A stretch of 64,000 nt of DNA. It comes from Zymoseptoria tritici IPO323. Its lineage: Eukaryota > Ascomycota > Dothideomycetes > Mycosphaerellales > Mycosphaerellaceae. Under the pieces are notes generated by a model. That model was not told where the DNA came from and did not search any database. It worked only from the letters and a program-made list of their open reading frames with translations. The stretch spans positions 4,402,001-4,466,000 of the forward strand of contig NC_018218.1 in NCBI RefSeq assembly GCF_000219625.1. Direction: 5' to 3'. Below, piece by piece: positions 9,187 to 59,383 of this stretch. The position numbers were made by a program, and so were the translations under genes. Position 1 is the first letter of the stretch; each line of letters starts with the position of its first letter.

Positions 9187-9920
9187 CATGGCGGCTTGAT
9201 CGAGGGTGATCTGTATAGCTATATTGGTATGAGATCGAAGCTATTGCCATCATTGACGACTTCGAATGTCAAAGCAGTCTGCCATTGTAGCTGGAAGTTG
9301 TTTTTGCTATTGCCCATACCCGCTATCTTCTTAGCGTGAAATGAGGGAATCGACGCATACGGCCAACACAAGCGTCAAGCACTTCTGTTGTCAGCACCGC
9401 TGCAAGAGCTATGATTCTTCACGTTTTCTGCGATTGTCGTGACCGTGTCGTTGGCGTGGTAACATTTGGTCAGTTCAAGACCAAACTCGACCCAAGAATG
9501 CCAACCCCGTGCCAACAACATGCAGAGAAGGCCATTGCCCGATCTTGTGCTCGTGCGGATATGGTGAATAAGGTGCGATCAATCTCATCGTCATACAATG
9601 TAGGATTTGCAGTGTCGGAAGACGCGCAGTTGCTTGGTAATGCTCGACACAGCGGGAAAAAAGCCCGGGCCCCTTGATTGTGCACAGCTTTTCCAATTCT
9701 TGACTGATTTGGACGATTGATAGCTCAGGAGAGGCGCAAAAAGAGCATGACGTCGAGCCTTGCCCAGGTTAGTGTGAGTAGCGCGTGGCTATCCAACCAA
9801 AAAGCGATCATGTGCCAACACGCCATATGACCAAAAAATCGCGAAAAATAAAGGCTGTCGGAGTAGACGACTGAGGAGATGTTAGGTCAAGCTCGTATAT
9901 AGCCAGATGTGAAGCGGACT
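9187..9920. other. Intergenic between the TMF-like gene and tRNA-Ser
   Basis: No gene seen. On the minus strand, T-runs (A-runs at about 9833-9839 and 9844-9848 on the plus strand) lie about 70-90 nt past the 3' end of the tRNA-Ser and could serve as its RNA polymerase III terminator. Confidence 0.4.
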
Positions 9921-10078
9921 AACCGTTGGCAGGACTCGAACCTACGCTTTGAGGTTGTTAGCGATGCATTGAAACAAGGCTTTGTGGATCAGACTCACCC
10001 CCCGAAGGGAATTGATAGCAATTAATCAATGAATTGATTGGTTCTAGTCAATCGCAGTAACCACTTTGCTACAACGCC
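9921..10078 (-). tRNA. tRNA-Ser(AGA) with a canonical intron and a second mRNA-like insert
   Basis: Read on the minus strand from 10078. Acceptor GGCGTTG (10078-10072) pairs with CAACGGT (9928-9922) with one G-G mismatch and one G-T. The D arm is GCA/TGC. Anticodon stem ATTGA/TCAAT (10052-10048 and 10015-10011) is perfect; the loop is CTAGAA plus A with anticodon AGA at 10045-10043. A 25-nt intron (10041-10017) sits at the normal 37/38 site. The variable arm is CCC-TTC-GGG, T-stem GTAGG/CCTGC and T-loop TTCGAGT. Between variable arm and T-stem lies a 52-nt segment (9998-9947) starting GTGAGT and ending AG. Without both inserts the molecule is 81 nt with a normal serine tRNA shape. A and B boxes look intact. 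The acceptor mismatch leaves open that it is a pseudogene. Confidence 0.72.
9947..9998 (-). other. mRNA-type intron inside the tRNA-Ser gene (putative)
   Basis: 52 nt, minus strand. It starts GTGAGT, has GCTAAC about 14 nt before the end, and ends CAAAG. Removing it restores the serine-tRNA run from the variable arm into CGTAGGTTCGAG. Size and signals equal those of protein-gene introns in this window. Confidence 0.6.
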
Positions 10079-14976: not shown

Positions 14977-17364
14977 ATGGCACGCTGGACAGTCTCATCC
15001 TTAGCATTGGGTCTTAACATTCTGTTGGTGTTCTTCACATCAAATGTCACCGCCGCAAGCTACCCTGTGCAGCAATACAAATGGTACAGAAACTACTATC
15101 CGCTACCGGAACAATACTGCATCTACGGTACACTACGCCCCAGCTGCCTGATTGTCACTGACACCGAGCTAATCGTTTCACGGCAGGCTGTCAAGGCACA
15201 CTCAACTACGTCAAGTTCAACTTCACGCCCATCAGCACCGACATCAACGGCTACCTGCTGAACAGGTGCTCCAACAAACTCCTGCTCAACTCAATATTGT
15301 ACTGCGGCCAGAAGTACTGCACTCCTCGGGAAGTTCGCGAGGGGCGCAAGGCCCTCGCACGAGATTGTGATCAGATCGGACTGCCATACCCTACTATCGA
15401 GGACGCCCGACTGTCGGACGAAGCACTGAACAACATCCTCGTATTGAACTATACTGCCGGACTGGCCACTGCGAACGCTCCGCTCGGTCCAGGAGTTGCG
15501 GCAATCCCAGACTTAGACTGGCACACACGATCGGAAAGGACCGTGGACGCGCAGTACTTCAACTATGACCTCAGCTTCGACTTCAGTTTTGCCTTGATCG
15601 GTTTCTGGGGCCTCGTGATTGTCGTTGGCATGGTCTATCGCATTCTGGTGTACATGGGCAAACCGGTCGACGGGTGTTCATCGTCGAGCTGGTGGCTGTG
15701 GGTTCGCAGGACGCTCATATTACCGGCAACTTTCGGTCAGAAGCAAGCAGAAGCGGTCGCTCATGCTTTTACCATTCCACCGAGACTCGAAACTCTCCTG
15801 CTGACCCTCTACCTTGTCATAAATATCGTCATGTGCTTTCCTAGCTATGACATCTTCACTGGTAACTTATAGTGAGTCCTTGCAGCCGGTGGTTGACAGC
15901 GTCTATGTACTGACCTATTCGCAGCTATCCAGAAAAGCGAGTTCAGCTCGCTCGCTACATTGGTGACCGCACAGGCTTTTTGTCATTTGCTCAGCTACCC
16001 ATGGTCTGGGTCTTTTCGGCGCGCAATGAGCCTTTCATGTGGCTGACAGGCTGGTCAGTGCGACCATATCGCTACATCTTAACACGGTACACTGACAAAT
16101 CTCCAGGTCGTATGCGACATTCAACCGTTTCCACCGATGGATCGCCCGCATATCGGTACTGCACGCCGTCGTCCATTCGATTGCTTACTCCTTCTATGCG
16201 GCCTGGACGAGCACTTATGTATCCTCGTGGAAGGAAGTGTACTGGTGGGCCGGCGGCATTGCCACGATCGTCATGTGTCTGATGCTCCCGGCTTCCTCCT
16301 ATGTTTTCCGGCAACGCTGCTACGAACTCTTTCTCGCTGTTCACATCTTGGCGGCGTTGTTGTCTCTCATCACGCTCTGGTACCACGTGCGCATCTTCAA
16401 TGGCCAGTTCAATTACTTCCTGTACCCATGCATCGGCATCTGGGCGCTGGATCGCTTACTGCGAATCGTTCGAACGACAGCCCTCTCGGTCATGCCACGC
16501 TTCGCGAAGGGAGCCAAGGCCACGGTTACATACAACCACAGCACCGATCTGATTCGAATGGACATCAGCGAATTTCTCCCAAAGACAGACATTGTCCCTG
16601 GACGCTACTACTACTTGTATATCCCGGGAAACATTCGCGGGTGGGAGAGCCATCCCTTCACATTGTGTTCCTGGCGACGGCCGGCCTCTTCACCATCGGC
16701 ATCACCGCGCACATCGGCCGCTGACAAGCAAATACACGCTTCAGTGCGAAAGTCTCCCGACGACTACCACTATTGTAGCACGGCTCATACTCTCCTCATT
16801 CGCCCTCACCAAGGCATGACCCGCCGACTTGAACGGAAGCTTTCTCTTGCACCTGAGAACATCGTCTCAAGCCGCGAGACAGTCTTCCTCGAAGGCCCGT
16901 ATGGCGTACCTGTCGACCTCTCGACCTACTCCGACATACTCATCCTGTGCGGAGGCTCTGGCATTGCTGCCGCAATCTCTCACACCCACCACATCATCAC
17001 TGCGAATTCCACCTCCCGCATCCACATCGCTTGGGCTAGTCCTCGGCGTGATCTGCCCGATGACGTGTGCGCCAACGAGCTGGCGGAGGTCATACACACT
17101 GATCGAGTGCACATGACAGTCTATCTGACTGCTTCCGCGGTAGCAGACAAGGACGAGGATCAGCAACTTCCATACGAGACTCTCCATGGACGACCGAACT
17201 TCGAAGCGATCATTAGGCACAGAAGGAGCCTCGCGACGAGTAGTTTGGCCGTGGTCAGCTGTGGCAAGGCACAAATGAGTGATGATTGTCGGGCGGCAGT
17301 CGCCAAGGTGCTGGGCAGTAAAGGGAGCCCGGTTGGGTACTACAACGCGACGATGATATGGTGA
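14977..17364 (+). CDS. Ferric reductase-type transmembrane oxidoreductase (FRE family)
   Basis: Exons 14977-15127, 15187-15871, 15925-16053 and 16107-17364 give 740 aa; introns are 59, 53 and 53 nt. A signal peptide (ALGLNILLVFFTSNVTA) leads a Cys-containing extracellular N domain (YCIYGCQGTLNY, LYCGQKYCTP). The ferric-reductase membrane core follows, with haem-ligand His candidates in SVLHAVVHSIAY and ELFLAVHILAAL. Next come the FAD-binding HPFTLCSW and an NADPH-type half with LILCGGSGIAA and a late SCGKAQMSDDCR. FRE proteins pass electrons from cytosolic NADPH across the plasma membrane to Fe(III) or Cu(II). The C terminus YYNATMIW is not the usual aromatic FxESF-W end but is in the right place. 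The third intron uses a GTCAGT donor. Confidence 0.9.
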
Positions 17365-53207: not shown

Positions 53208-54185
53208 GTCGTAGTCGTAGGTGCTTGAAGATCTCGTCCAAATGATTGTAGGCCGACCTGCGGTGAGAATGTACAGACTTCGGTCAACGAAGAAAGATCG
53301 CCACACGGAATGGAAATGCAAAGGAGAACGAGGAAATTGACAGACACCCAAAGGAACAGAAACGGTGCAGTAGAGCGTGAAGGAAGACTCCGCCTCTCTA
53401 TTGACGGCATCATGGCCTTATACAGACCTGTCACCAGCCTCTACCAACCAGTCGTTGGCGCCTGCCAGCGTTACTCAAAAACAACTTGGCGCTCAGCAAG
53501 GCGGTTACATGGGCAAATGTCTCCTCCCATGCGATCTCAACGTGGTCACTGCTGGCGCTAACTAGGAGCCGCGAGATGGATCGGCGGTCTGGTTGGATTC
53601 CTGCTGAAATGGTTCTCCACGGATGCGTATTTAGGTCGGCCTTGCGGTAGCACAGACGTTCGAGATCTTGATGGCTGAGGTGGGATCGAATTGGCTGGAT
53701 GAGAGGCATCGGTGCGGATTCGTTCAGTTTGTGGGCGCTTAAAACGACAGCCAATGAAGCGGCGGGCATGGGGTCTTGCAGCATCCTGGTCGGCGTTTCG
53801 CTGATATGAGCGGGGCGTCGCAAATCTATTGTATACATCGAGTGCAGGACGGCTTCTTGGAAGGGATGCAATGTTCCGGGTGCGAGATGAGGTGCGGCAG
53901 TGAACGTGAAATTGAAGAAGAAAAGGAGAGGTGGTTGTTCTTCGCTAAACCACGGCGTCTGACGCCGCTCGGATCCGACCCGTTAAGTTGCCGCTGCCAG
54001 AGTGACGTTGTAGGTTGGCAGCTTTTCCGAGTATAACATTCAATGTCGAGGACTTGAGATCCGGCAACCAAAGACTGCTTCTTCGCTGAACTTCCTCGCA
54101 CGGTAGTGGACTGCGCCATTACCTCTCCCGATTCTCGAGTTTCTACTCCAGACTTCGAACACTTCGACCACGACCTCCATCCATC
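53208..54185. promoter_or_regulatory. Divergent promoter region of the methyltransferase and epimerase genes
   Basis: About 980 bp between two starts. No gene or clear motif supported; frames on both strands are short and overlapping. Confidence 0.35.
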
Positions 54186-55045: not shown

Positions 55046-55494
55046 CTAGATCGTGGAAGGCTGTAAGGAACCAACGAGAAGACAGCATTGGGTCGCATAC
55101 GGTGGGTCGGACGACAGAGGGCATGACACGACAGTTCCATGGAACGTTCTACATAGACATAGAAGCGGTACATGTACTGCGTTGAGATCCTTCAGCCTGG
55201 CCTGCTTTGGGGTGTCAATAGCAAAAGAATGTAAAGGGACTTCGGTGCCGATTCCAACAAAGCTGTAACTCCGGGACCCTGCTGACCTGAGACGCTCGAG
55301 CTCGGAGCGGGAGATGTACACGCCTCGATCTGTAATTACCTCCACGTTTTGTCACTCACCACCGCAGTCAACGACCTCCCAAACGCAGTCATCCGATCTT
55401 TTGCACCGGCGCGACGATCGACTAAACAATCCTCGTCTGAATTATAAAATCAATGTCCAGCTTCACACAGCGCTCGGCATAGCAACAGCCCAAC
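55046..55494. promoter_or_regulatory. Spacer between RPE1 and the dipeptidyl aminopeptidase gene
   Basis: 449 bp on the same strand; 3' UTR of RPE1 and promoter of the peptidase gene. No motif recognised. Confidence 0.35.
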
Positions 55495-58272
55495 ATGGGT
55501 CGGGCGGAGGAGATGAGAGAGCGGGAATCGCAGCCTTTGACAACTTCAGGCGAACCAACAATACCACCCGAGGAGCGGAATGGAAGACCTTCCATGTCCA
55601 GTGCTTCAACCACTTCGTTAATCCTCGAGCACGCTTCCGGTCATTCCGCCACCGAAGCTAAGGAGGCACTCTACACGGACAGTCTCAGCAGAGAAGAGCT
55701 CGAGTTGGAGGACCAAGCAATATGGCAGCGATCGACGAAACCAGCGGATAAAAAGGCGCGGCGAATACTATACATCCTCATTGCGATTGGTGCTGTGGGC
55801 TGGGTCGCAGCGTTGTTTCTATTCTTGGGTCAGGACAGACATATACCTCATGCATCACGACCGCATGACCCTCTTGCGACATCCACGAGTGGGAACGGGA
55901 AGAAGGTTACCCTCGAACAAGTACAGGAAGGGGCATGGAGGTCGACACAACATGCGATCAGCTGGATAGCAGGTCCCAACGGCGAGGATGGCTTATTACT
56001 TGAGAGAGGAGGAAGCGGCGGCCGCGACTACCTCGTGGTGGAAGACGTGCGATACCGAGGCGAAGATGTTGCGACACAAAAGCAGCACAGCACAACCCTC
56101 ATGAAGAAGGGCAGTTTTGAGGTGGGAGGTGGAAGGGACGTCTACGTGGAGGATGCCACGCCAAGTGCAGATCACAAGCATGTGCTGGTGGGAAGTGATA
56201 AGCAGAGCAATTGGCGACACAGCAGTACTGGGACGTACTGGATTTTCAATGTCGAGACGCAGAGTGGCGAGGCACTCGATCCGGCCAAGATAGATGGTAG
56301 GATTCAACTGGCGTCGTGGAGTCCGAAAGGCAATGCTGTGGTGTTTACCAGGGACAACAACATGTTCATACGCCATCTGGACTCTGATGTTGTCAATGCG
56401 ATCACGACGGATGGTGGACCGGATCTCTTCTACGGCATCCCTGACTGGGTCTACGAGGAAGAAGTGCTTGCGACTGGAGGTGCTACTTGGTGGAGTGGTG
56501 ATGGAAAATATGTTGCTTTCTTCAAGACGGATGAGTCCAAGGTCCCGACGTTTCCCGTGCAGTACTTCTTCAGCCGACCGAGTGGTAAGGAACCGAAGCC
56601 TGGCGAAGAGAATTATCCCGAGGTCCGCGAGATCAAGTATCCCAAAGCTGGTGCGCCAATGTCTGTTGTTGAGCTGCTGTTCTATGACGTTGAAAAAGGT
56701 CAAGTTTTCAGCGTTCCGATCGAGAACGATTTTGACGCCGAGGACCGCCTGATTACAGAAGTCATATGGGCAGGCGAGACGGGAAAGGTTATCATTCGAT
56801 CGACCAACAGGGAGAGTGATATCTTGAAGACGATACTGGTCGACGCGAAAGCACGAACTGGCAAGACGGTTCGTGAACGCGATGTGCAAGAGTTGGACGG
56901 TGGATGGTTTGAGGTCTCGCATACGACTCGATTCGTTCCTGCGGATCCGGACAACGGCCGACCGCATGATGGATATGTCGATACCGTCATCGACGAGAAT
57001 TTTGACCATCTGGCTTATTTCACACCTCTGGACAATCCAGAACCGCAGATGCTCACCTCGGGAGACTGGGAAGTGGTCAACGCCCCTTCAAGCATCGATC
57101 TCGAACACAATCTGGTCTACTTCATTGCCACGAAGCATGGCAGCACTCAGCGGCATCTATACACTACTGAGCTTCTCAAAGGCCCCGAGAGTGTCAAAGC
57201 CATCACCGATACCAGCGAGATTGGATATCATCGCACATCTTTCTCCGCCGAGAGCAAATTCATGCTCCTCACTTATGAAGGTCCGGGAATCCCGTGGCAA
57301 AAAGTGCAGTCTACGCCTAGCAACAAAGCCGAAGATCTGGACATTACCATTGAGAAGAACAAACGTCTCAAAGAGCTTGCTCAGAAGACCGAGCTTCCCA
57401 TCGAGATCTACTCTACGATCAATGTCGACGGGTTTGACCTGAATGTGGTCGAGAGAAGACCACCACACTTTGATCCGAAGAAGAAGTATCCTGTACTGTT
57501 CTACCTTTACAATGGTCCAGGATTCCAATTGGTCGACCGCACATTCGAGGTTGACTTCCAATCATACGTTGCGAGCAGCTTGGGCTACATTGTTGTCTCT
57601 GTCGACGGCCGTGGTACCGGATTTTTGGGCCGTGAGCATCGAACCATCATCCGCGGTAACATCGGCTACTGGGAGGCCAAAGATCAAATCGCAGCCGCGA
57701 AAATGTGGAAAGCGAAACAGTACGTCGACGGCGACCGCATGGCTATTTGGGGATGGAGCTATGGCGGCTTCATGGCCCTGAAAGTGCTTGAGACGGATGC
57801 TGGAGAAACGTTCAAGTACGGCATGGCCGTCGCACCCGTCACGGACTGGCGCTTCTACGACTCCATCTATACAGAGCGATACATGCACATGCCGCAGCAC
57901 AACAAGGAAGGGTACGATAATGCCACGATCTCCAACATGACCGGTCTGTCCAGCAACGTGCGTTTCCTCGTCATGCACGGCGTGAGCGACGACAATGTGC
58001 ACTTCCAGAACACGCTCATGTTATTGGACAAGCTGGACCAGGCGAATGTGCGGAACTACGACGTCCACGTTTTCCCGGACAGTGACCATAGCATCTTCTT
58101 CCACAATGCCAACCAGGTGGTCTACGAGAGTGAGTGGACTGATCCACGCGCTGCGCACACATGCTGACAATGATTGATAGAACTTCGCGACTGGCTCATC
58201 AACGCATTCAATGGAGAATGGATGCGAACCGACGACCCTAAGCCTCATCGGAAGTCGGACATTCTCTCTTGA
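55495..58272 (+). CDS. Dipeptidyl aminopeptidase, DPP IV family (Ste13/Dap2-like)
   Basis: Exons 55495-58129 and 58181-58272 (intron 51 nt) give 908 aa. A cytosolic N terminus of about 95 residues precedes one membrane helix ([22 protein letters not shown]), the type II topology of vacuolar Dap2 and Golgi Ste13. The beta-propeller includes the substrate-anchoring [10 protein letters not shown], equivalent to the double-Glu loop of DPP IV. The C-terminal hydrolase holds Ser in [13 protein letters not shown], Asp in GVSDDNVHF and His in DSDHSIFF. The final exon adds [14 protein letters not shown]. It removes X-Pro or X-Ala dipeptides in the secretory pathway or vacuole; which of the two compartments is not decidable from sequence. 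Confidence 0.95.
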
Positions 58273-59124
58273 CGATTGCTTGCTGTTATCGTGGCGATAG
58301 CGTGCTTATATCTTACACAGCGACGGAATATCAACGTGAAGTTGAAGCAAGTGTGAGCGCTTCTGTTTTCCTTTACAGAAGGTTTGTACAGCCAGATCCT
58401 CTTCTTGTACAGAAAGCGACTCTATGCCTCGGAGAACAGCACGATGGCACAGAGCATTATGGTCGTGCTAACGAACAGATTTGTCGTTCGAGTTCGGCTT
58501 CGGCTTGACATTGCAAGAGCAGTCCAATCGGCACCTCAGTCACGCCTTGCTCTTGCCTCTTTGTACACACCTAGTCTGCGCGATTGTTTCGACAGACATG
58601 TGGACGATGAGGAGCATGTTGCCATGAACACATCGACAATGTCCGCCCAAATCGAGGATCAAGGTGTGCAATGGCGACAAGCGTTCAACATGAAGACCCC
58701 AACAACAAACTGGCATCCAGCACATATTTCAATACGCCAGCTCAGATACAACTACGGCAGCGTCGATGCACAGCGCTGCCGCCAATAGCGTTGAGCAGCA
58801 ATCTGGGAAGCAGCCATTTCGATCTACACTCAGTTCAACAAGACCAGTGAACCCATACACTCAAGTCTACGTTCTCAATTACCTTGCCCTCCCGCTGACC
58901 AGCTATCGTCGCCGCCTCGCGCTCAAGACTCCGTATCGCCGGCGCCTTGGCTTGTTTCTCCACCGGCTTCTACATGCCTCCACCCCAGCCTGGCCCATTC
59001 ACCCGCCTACTAGGGCTCTATCGCCCTTCACGAGTGCCATACCGGACGATGCAGAAGGCTTGCAGTTTGTGACGTCATATTTGCTGGAGCTTTATATACG
59101 CATGCACTTTAGTTTTGAGCCATC
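58273..59124. other. Intergenic between the peptidase gene and tRNA-Arg
   Basis: No supported protein gene; short frames only. Immediately upstream of the tRNA are TTTATATAC and AT-rich bases (about 59090-59110). Confidence 0.4.
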
Positions 59125-59249
59125 GGCCGGCTGGCTCAATGGTAGAGTGCTTGACTACGAATCAAGAGGCTGCAGGGTAAGCATTCAACCTATACTTCCT
59201 TCCATGATCAACAACTAATTCTCCCTCAGTTCGAGCCCTGCGTCGGTCA
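59125..59249 (+). tRNA. tRNA-Arg(ACG) interrupted by an mRNA-type intron in the T arm
   Basis: Acceptor GGCCGGC (59125-59131) pairs with GTCGGTC (59242-59248; two G-T). The D arm is GCTC/GAGT, the anticodon stem CTTGA/TCAAG is perfect, and the loop CTACGAA has anticodon ACG at 59157-59159. The T-stem 5' half GCAGG is at 59172-59176. A 53-nt segment (59177-59229) follows, then T-loop TTCGAGC, CCTGC, the acceptor strand and discriminator A. Without the segment the tRNA is 72 nt and perfectly folded. No intron is present at 37/38. A T9 run (59251-59259) follows directly, a strong RNA polymerase III terminator. The insertion splits the B box between GG and TTCGAGCCC, but the insert's final AG rebuilds an AGTTCGAGCCC near-consensus. 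Confidence 0.85.
59177..59229 (+). other. mRNA-type intron inside the tRNA-Arg gene (putative)
   Basis: 53 nt: GTAAGC donor, a pyrimidine-rich body, ACTAAT branch-like site 14-19 nt before the end, then CTCAG. Precise removal restores the T arm. An uninterrupted copy of the joined sequence occurs at 59917-59941. Confidence 0.75.
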
Positions 59250-59383
59250 ATTTTTTTTTCGAGCGGTCCAGGGCCATTTTGCATTGATCACCTTTTTTCT
59301 TTTCCGAGTGCAGCAAATCGCCTACGGCTGCATTGGTCACATTTGTTTCTTGTTCGAGTGTAGTAAAGCACTGCGTTGATCAA
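59230..59383 (+). repeat. Four degenerate tandem copies of the tRNA-Arg 3' end
   Basis: The functional end TTCGAG...TGCGTCGGTCA plus T-run is followed by three decayed repeats with TGCATTGATCA (59280-59290), TGCATTGGTCA (59329-59339) and TGCGTTGATCA (59372-59382). Each is preceded by a TCGAG-like motif, and the first two also by T-rich stretches. Spacing is 41-49 bp. Confidence 0.6.
59251..59259 (+). terminator. RNA polymerase III terminator of tRNA-Arg
   Basis: Nine T residues starting two bases after the discriminator base. Confidence 0.85.

Follow-up and report, generated by a model that had tools for sequence, protein, structure and literature searches.

A nuclear tRNA-Arg(ACG) gene of Zymoseptoria tritici with a putative spliceosomal intron at position 53/54, one of at least four tRNA genes of this kind

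The window analysed here is a 64,000-nucleotide stretch of chromosome 1 of Zymoseptoria tritici IPO323 (C1:4402001-4466000), in a genome of 39,686,251 bases and 21 contigs. It carries a tRNA-Arg(ACG) gene on the forward strand that is interrupted between tRNA positions 53 and 54. The gene and its surroundings contain the following features.

59091..59098, + strand: TATA-like element TTTATATA, ~33 nt upstream of the tRNA-Arg gene
59125..59176, + strand: exon 1 of tRNA-Arg(ACG), positions 1-53, with the anticodon ACG and without a canonical 37/38 intron
59132-59142, + strand: A box TGGCTCAATGG, inside exon 1
59177..59229, + strand: mRNA-type intron of 53 nt at 53/54, with donor GTAAGC (59177-59182), branch CTAAT (59215-59219) and acceptor CAG (59227-59229)
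59229-59237, + strand: B-box core GTTCGAGCC
59230..59249, + strand: exon 2, positions 54-73
59251..59259, + strand: T9 run, an RNA polymerase III-type terminator, one base past the tRNA 3' end

An earlier note on this DNA had described a tRNA-Arg(ACG) that is split at 53/54 by a 53-nt GTAAGC...CTAAT...CAG insert, is followed by T9 and is fully foldable without the insert. The coordinates and ARAGORN bear this out, since excision of the insert gives a 72-nt tRNA-Arg(ACG) with a full cloverleaf. Moving the cut by -1 base leaves the product the same, and only the cut listed above obeys the GT-AG rule. The last G of the intron stands in for G53 of the B box, so that the DNA keeps the B-box core GTTCGAGCC whole despite the split in the tRNA. 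With introns removed, the cloverleaf, identity elements and A and B boxes of a nuclear tRNA gene are all present. On the unspliced window, ARAGORN reports no tRNA, neither this gene nor the tRNA-Ser gene described below. The Rfam tRNA model matches 59125-59249 at 43.6 bits when run on the whole window, and at 32.5 bits, with 59 letters placed in the T loop, when run separately on 601 bases.

The splice signals of the insert are rare in combination. A GTRNGY donor, a YAG acceptor and, 7-25 nt before the end, a CTRAY branch occur together in 6 of the 127,894 53-mers of the window (both strands), the Arg insert among them, and in none of 200,000 shuffles of the insert. The folding of the precursor is no better than that of shuffles (z 0.14).

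A second interrupted tRNA gene, on the reverse strand of the same window, came to light in a list of intron-like stretches. Such stretches are no more frequent overall in the window than in the reversed window (87 vs 109); an excess is seen only for those of 50-59 nt (22 vs 7). The gene is absent from the window's Rfam tRNA matches at gathering score, as it is from the ARAGORN output, and it is laid out as follows.

10078-9868, - strand: tRNA-Ser(AGA) gene, 81 nt mature, with G73, a variable arm, one canonical and two mRNA-type introns
10042..10078, - strand: first exon, positions 1-37, anticodon AGA
10017..10041, - strand: canonical 25-nt intron at 37/38 (ARAGORN)
9999..10016, - strand: exon with position 38, the 3' side of the anticodon stem and most of the variable arm
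9947..9998, - strand: 52-nt mRNA-type intron in the variable arm, GTGAGT...CTAAC (9957-9961)...AAG
9924..9946, - strand: exon with the last variable-arm base, the T arm and acceptor positions 66-70
9871..9923, - strand: 53-nt mRNA-type intron in the acceptor stem at 70/71, GTTAGT...CTAAC (9881-9885)...CAG
9868..9870, - strand: last exon, U71, C72 and discriminator G73

The AAG acceptor of the variable-arm intron is a weaker one, but use of the TAG five bases further on would worsen the T stem. When the first mRNA-type intron alone is removed, ARAGORN still draws a tRNA-Ser(AGA), of 83 bases and with a mismatched acceptor stem; since a tRNA-Ser is obtained without removing it, the 70/71 intron is the least certain of the mRNA-type introns considered here.

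Two further genes of this kind lie outside the window.

C2:400161-400375: tRNA-Ala(CGC) gene, found by a search for A and B boxes too far apart
C1:5763991-5763849, - strand: tRNA-Ile(AAT) gene, with a 13-nt canonical intron and a 56-nt mRNA-type intron that splits the A box at 11/12

Removal of a 52-nt and a 57-nt GT-AG intron, at 26/27 and 45/46, and of a 34-nt canonical intron from the Ala gene gives a 72-nt tRNA-Ala(CGC) with a full acceptor stem, a G3:U70 pair and the loop UUCGCAU. G3:U70 is a mark of tRNA-Ala, as G73 is of tRNA-Ser. Given the unspliced Ala gene and allowed introns of 200 nt, ARAGORN draws a tRNA-Val(CAC) whose anticodon stem is faulty and whose intron measures 134 nt. The only Rfam match to the unspliced gene is a weak one, to tmRNA, at the 3' end. 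At the Ile gene (locus L035), Rfam gives no match at E up to 0.1.

The Ile gene is new from a strict excise-and-fold scan, in which every GT...CTRAY...AG stretch of 40-75 nt was removed, singly or in pairs, before ARAGORN was run. The scan covered 112 sequences (311,269 bases, some overlapping), after 8 duplicate or fragment loci, L097 included, had been omitted. With the real signals, 18 of 8,276 constructs gave a tRNA over every junction; three decoy signal sets gave 0/4,919, 0/2,155 and 0/4,992. The hits fall at six listed places, five of them separate: the Arg and Ser genes, known beforehand, the Ile gene (L035 and L066 are this same gene) and two artefacts by the analyst's reading, one adjoining a canonical Leu intron (L093) and one at the edge of a tRNA-like repeat (L011). 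The Ala gene stands outside this test because it spans L087 and the omitted L097. A relaxed scan gave 129 hits in 881,171 constructs with real signals and 27, 17, 120 and 53 with four decoy sets, and since the decoys give hits too, it was dropped as evidence. One of its hits, Phe-like, at 53560-53730 of the window, is taken as noise: its acceptor stem pairs poorly, and neither an A box nor a B box is visible by eye.

A survey for A and B boxes separated by a 62-92-nt gap, with three A-box spellings (TAGT left out), gave 46 + 43 + 17 = 106 hits, of which 31 (8 + 20 + 2 + the window) were read with their flanks. These comprise two mRNA-type genes (the window Arg and the Ala gene on C2), four tRNAs whose canonical introns are long (Ala AGC, Leu CAG, Arg CCT and Val CAC, the anticodons by the analyst's reading except for Val), two borderline tRNA-like elements on C11, and 23 hits that the Rfam tRNA model does not match. 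The remaining 75 were judged by eye for a D stem on their first 80 letters. This by-eye test misses genes, as it initially skipped a likely tRNA-Ser(CGA) at C2:1441734-1441829 (+ strand; canonical intron of ~34 nt; read without its acceptor end). A survey with a shorter gap and the TGGC spelling only gave 64 hits (control 24).

Several tRNA-like sequences were seen along the way. Among loci L004-L033 (30 of 58 matches listed), 28 of 30 are AT-rich, dispersed and much alike, 26 of them tRNA-Cys(ACA)-like and two Tyr(ATA)-like, and they look as if they were a tRNA-derived repeat mutated by RIP. Two tRNA-like loci, L088 (from C11:1525290, + strand) and L089 (from C11:1548162, - strand), lie ~23 kb apart and share their ends and differ in their middles; the alignment places 48 and 68 letters in their anticodon arms, and their scores, 30.2 and 28.4 bits, fall on either side of the gathering score of 29. 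Among the hits of the shorter-gap survey are six copies of a stretch of 53-54 nt whose A and B boxes resemble those of tRNA genes (TGGCC[CT]AGTGGTAAAGCGCCCCACCC...); they lie on C5 (two), C7, C13 and C18 (two) and are probably a tRNA-derived repeat. The canonical introns of the Ala(CGC), Ser(TGA), Arg(CCT) and C4 Arg(ACG) genes contain B-box- or T-arm-like letters, GGGTTCGACTCG, GGTTCGAA, GGGACTCGATCCC and, in reverse, TTCGAACC, which may perhaps act as an extra promoter element.

Taken together, six GT-AG introns were found in four tRNA genes, two each in Ser and Ala, and the Ser, Ala and Ile genes additionally keep a canonical 37/38 intron. Their lengths are 53 nt (Arg), 52 nt (Ser, variable arm), 53 nt (Ser, 70/71), 52 nt (Ala, 26/27), 57 nt (Ala, 45/46) and 56 nt (Ile, 11/12), and in the same order the branch A lies 11, 11, 11, 11, 12 and 12 nt from the 3' end. 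All six have a GT donor, a CTRAY branch at fungal spacing and an AG acceptor, as U2-type introns do. The branch is CTAAC in five and CTAAT in one, and the acceptors are CAG in three, TAG in two and AAG in one; one donor is a weak GTACAG. None of the six lies at the canonical 37/38 position. The sites (53/54, 11/12, 26/27, 45/46, variable arm and 70/71, the numbering outside the Arg gene being assigned by the analyst) are all different, so that no tRNA position is preferred.

The host's protein genes provide a yardstick for these introns. Five introns that join long reading frames in the window (at 15872, 26355, 54429, 61242 and 40365), picked, partly for their intron-like look, from the 22 of 141 frame-joining candidates that have a branch, are 52-55 nt long with the branch A at 11-14 nt. 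The inserts in the tRNA genes match them in layout and, at 52-57 nt, in length. The signals, spacing and length of the six inserts are those of spliceosomal introns. Group I and II introns are far longer than 52-57 nt, and no match to their cores was found; at gathering score, tRNA is all that the Rfam scan detects in the window.

The six introns are not significantly alike: in 15 pairwise comparisons, the most similar pair was equalled by 7% of shuffles. Of the six, the Arg intron was sought across the genome, and no further copy of it was found: a search with the Arg locus returns only tRNA exons elsewhere. The absence of detectable relatedness and of a second copy of the Arg intron argues against a single young introner family.

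One counterpart of the window gene was found, a tRNA-Arg(ACG) gene with an ordinary 19-nt intron at 37/38.

C4:919292-919382, - strand: tRNA-Arg(ACG) gene with a canonical intron

Its mature product equals the spliced window product at 72 of 72 positions, and BLAST matches between the two loci end at the gene ends or a few bases beyond or within them. With the C4 gene as query and E up to 10, only C4 and C1 match. A genome-wide Arg(ACG) pattern census gave 6 matches (control 9), of which one, C4, holds an ARAGORN tRNA, and another, at L035, sits within the tRNA-Ile gene. A looser pattern gave 186 matches (control 254), and no second gene was seen by eye among the ~100 matches listed, which reach part of C7. 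The C4 gene is thus the only other tRNA-Arg(ACG) gene found in the genome. A pattern for other 53/54-type genes, GGTAAG N25-55 AGTTCRANNC, matched at 12 places (reversed control 21) with the donor spelling GGTAAG only, GGTGAG and the like being left out; the window gene alone among them has an A box and a T stem of 5/5 pairs.

The census bears on the reading of the window gene as a dead copy, in which the insertion would be merely intron-like and never spliced. A review of tRNA genes notes that in eukaryotes short insertions in the D or T arm are mostly regarded as a sign of a pseudogene (PMC4090602), and another tRNA-Arg(ACG) gene, with the canonical intron only, does exist. The earlier note had made the number of such genes a touchstone, and a single other one was found, itself with a canonical intron, rather than several intact ones. 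However, the exons agree with the C4 product in all 72 bases, a donor, a branch and an acceptor occur together, which seldom happens by chance, and the pattern recurs in three other genes, two of which have two such introns each. We therefore consider a dead copy improbable. The earlier note had left the choice between a tRNA that needs the spliceosome to mature and a recently interrupted copy; the exon identity and the recurrence in Ser, Ala and Ile strongly favour the former, in which splicing would restore the tRNA. If both Arg(ACG) genes are expressed, one product would be reached by two different splicing routes.

It could also be argued that RNA polymerase II transcribes the Arg gene as part of a longer spliced RNA, from which the tRNA is cut out or in which it is kept as a tRNA-like element. 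The spliceosome's normal substrates are polymerase II transcripts, a long open frame on the same strand (55483-58167) ends ~1 kb upstream of the Arg gene, and a TATA-like element lies between. On the other hand, the A box, the B box and the T9 run one base past the 3' end fit polymerase III. Introns of this type are also reported for fungal U6 snRNA (PMC5832005), which is made by polymerase III (PMC10484740), so transcripts of this polymerase can carry them. The polymerase II reading is accordingly very improbable.

Polymerase III transcription fits all four genes, with their A and B boxes, T runs near the 3' ends and lack of internal TTTT. The T runs begin within 2 bases of the 3' end in three genes and ~20 nt downstream in Ser. 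None of the four genes contains TTTT, which is weak support because 70-81% of window segments of the same length lack TTTT too. TATA-like stretches precede the Ser, Ala and Ile genes too, at a distance of ~39 nt, so that such elements are found at 4/4 intron-bearing genes vs 2/11 other loci, several of these with short upstream stretches; the contrast is suggestive only.

The pairing needed by the tRNA splicing endonuclease was also looked for. A simple pairing test finds a four-pair bulge-helix-bulge core at none of the six sites, the best arrangement having 2 or 3 of 4 pairs (Arg, 2 of 4). In the same test 266 of 2,000 random sites reach 4 pairs, and since the canonical C4 intron scores just 3 of 4, the result is of moderate weight only. 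It nevertheless makes removal of the six introns by the endonuclease unlikely. That this enzyme cuts the Arg insert at an unusual position, as in archaea, where introns occur at many sites including 53/54, or as in the red alga Cyanidioschyzon, which like nucleomorphs has introns at unusual positions (PMC4090602), is hardly credible, as no bulge-helix-bulge was found in this test and the GT, CTAAY and AG would be left unexplained.

Based on these observations, the window most probably holds a real nuclear tRNA-Arg(ACG) gene with a U2-type spliceosomal intron at 53/54, one of at least four such tRNA genes whose transcripts would be processed by the spliceosome. RNA polymerase III would most likely transcribe the Arg gene from its A and B boxes, possibly with the TATA-like element, and stop at T9. 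The spliceosome would then remove the 53 nt and thereby join the T arm, and end trimming and CCA addition would follow as usual, giving a tRNA that would function in translation. The Ser, Ala and Ile precursors would need tRNA endonuclease and ligase as well for their ordinary 37/38 introns. In Arg, Ser and Ile the introns break a stem, the T-stem/loop junction or a promoter box, and splicing should for this reason precede the complete fold; the Ala introns lie between stems.

The phenomenon may be a broad one. On balance, we favour the view that a substantial share of the nuclear tRNA genes of Z. tritici has been invaded by spliceosomal introns, at many positions. Several decoders would then need the spliceosome to mature, namely Ser(AGA), Ala(CGC), Ile(AAT) and one of the two Arg(ACG) genes found, and three of these would need the tRNA endonuclease in addition. 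Any such invasion is partial, as nine tRNA genes read have no mRNA-type intron: C4 Arg-ACG, Arg-CCG, Ser-TGA, Ala-AGC, Leu-CAG, Arg-CCT, two Asn-GTT and Val-CAC. These nine were found by patterns that favour uninterrupted genes, and the anticodons of Ser, Ala, Leu, Arg-CCT and one Asn are the analyst's reading. If the invasion is widespread, the tRNA supply would depend on how active the spliceosome is, and much of the tRNA set of Z. tritici and its relatives would escape standard tRNA finders.

Pre-tRNA splicing, which is carried out by protein enzymes and guided by structure, is separate from pre-mRNA splicing, which is carried out by the spliceosome and guided by sequence. Genes that depend on both systems, and lose as many as three introns to yield a product of 72 or 81 nt, would show that the separation can be overcome. 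Uncapped polymerase III transcripts would be spliced around a 23-nt internal exon and around tRNA end pieces of 3 and 11 nt, not counting the trailer or leader, and the intron gain in the Z. tritici lineage would extend to tRNA genes. Annotation pipelines miss such genes: ARAGORN detects neither of the two in the window, and Rfam detects one of these two at gathering score and nothing at the Ile gene with E up to 0.1. The paper on tRNAscan-SE 2.0 describes eukaryotic tRNA genes as limited to one intron and its noncanonical intron search as built for archaea (PMC8450103). The main text of the IPO323 genome paper by Goodwin et al. 2011 (PMC3111534) contains no word starting with tRNA or intron. 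Also, no report of spliceosomal introns in nuclear tRNA genes was found in the titles and abstract openings listed by searches of the open-licence PMC literature.

Among known systems, canonical eukaryotic tRNA introns, cut by TSEN at 37/38, share the host class with the mRNA-type inserts, and three of the four genes carry one; they differ from the inserts in position, length, splice signals and pairing. The earlier note's premise that eukaryotic tRNA introns normally sit at 37/38 agrees with the review cited above, which places most of them there and names nucleomorphs and Cyanidioschyzon as exceptions (PMC4090602). In archaea, Cyanidioschyzon merolae and nucleomorphs, introns are found at many tRNA positions, including 53/54, with several per gene, as in the genes described here (PMC4090602, PMC3978253). 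The archaeal and C. merolae introns differ in that they rest on the bulge-helix-bulge, and those of the Guillardia theta nucleomorph in that they are 3-24 nt long, many without a defined bulge-helix-bulge, with a splicing route given as not known (PMC4090602, PMC3978253). In the sections of these two sources that deal with such introns, none is described as GT-AG with a branch site (PMC4090602, PMC3978253).

The introner-like elements of Dothideomycetes are likewise recently gained spliceosomal introns, and Z. tritici is known for recent gain (PMC4457414). They occur in many near-identical copies, whereas the genome search with the Arg intron and the comparison of the six introns point to no repeated family here. 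The closest likeness is to the introns of fungal U6 snRNA and U3 snoRNA genes, which have GT-AG ends and a branch site in small structured non-coding RNA genes (PMC5832005). According to the same paper, frequent interruption by an intron is known for no small structured RNAs other than U6 and U3, and U3 copies within one species can differ in intron presence (PMC5832005). A search of the Z. tritici genome for U6 gave no match anywhere, and its controls gave none either. The earlier note had cited U6 of fission yeast as a precedent for an mRNA-type intron in a polymerase III product; the precedent holds, and extends to other fungi (PMC5832005, PMC10484740). What would be new is the host class: spliceosomal introns, known from small non-coding RNA genes, would lie here in tRNA genes, for which no such report was found. 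The hosts of the U6 and U3 introns are snRNA and snoRNA genes, whereas those in Z. tritici are tRNA genes with internal promoters, two of which carry two such introns together with a canonical one.
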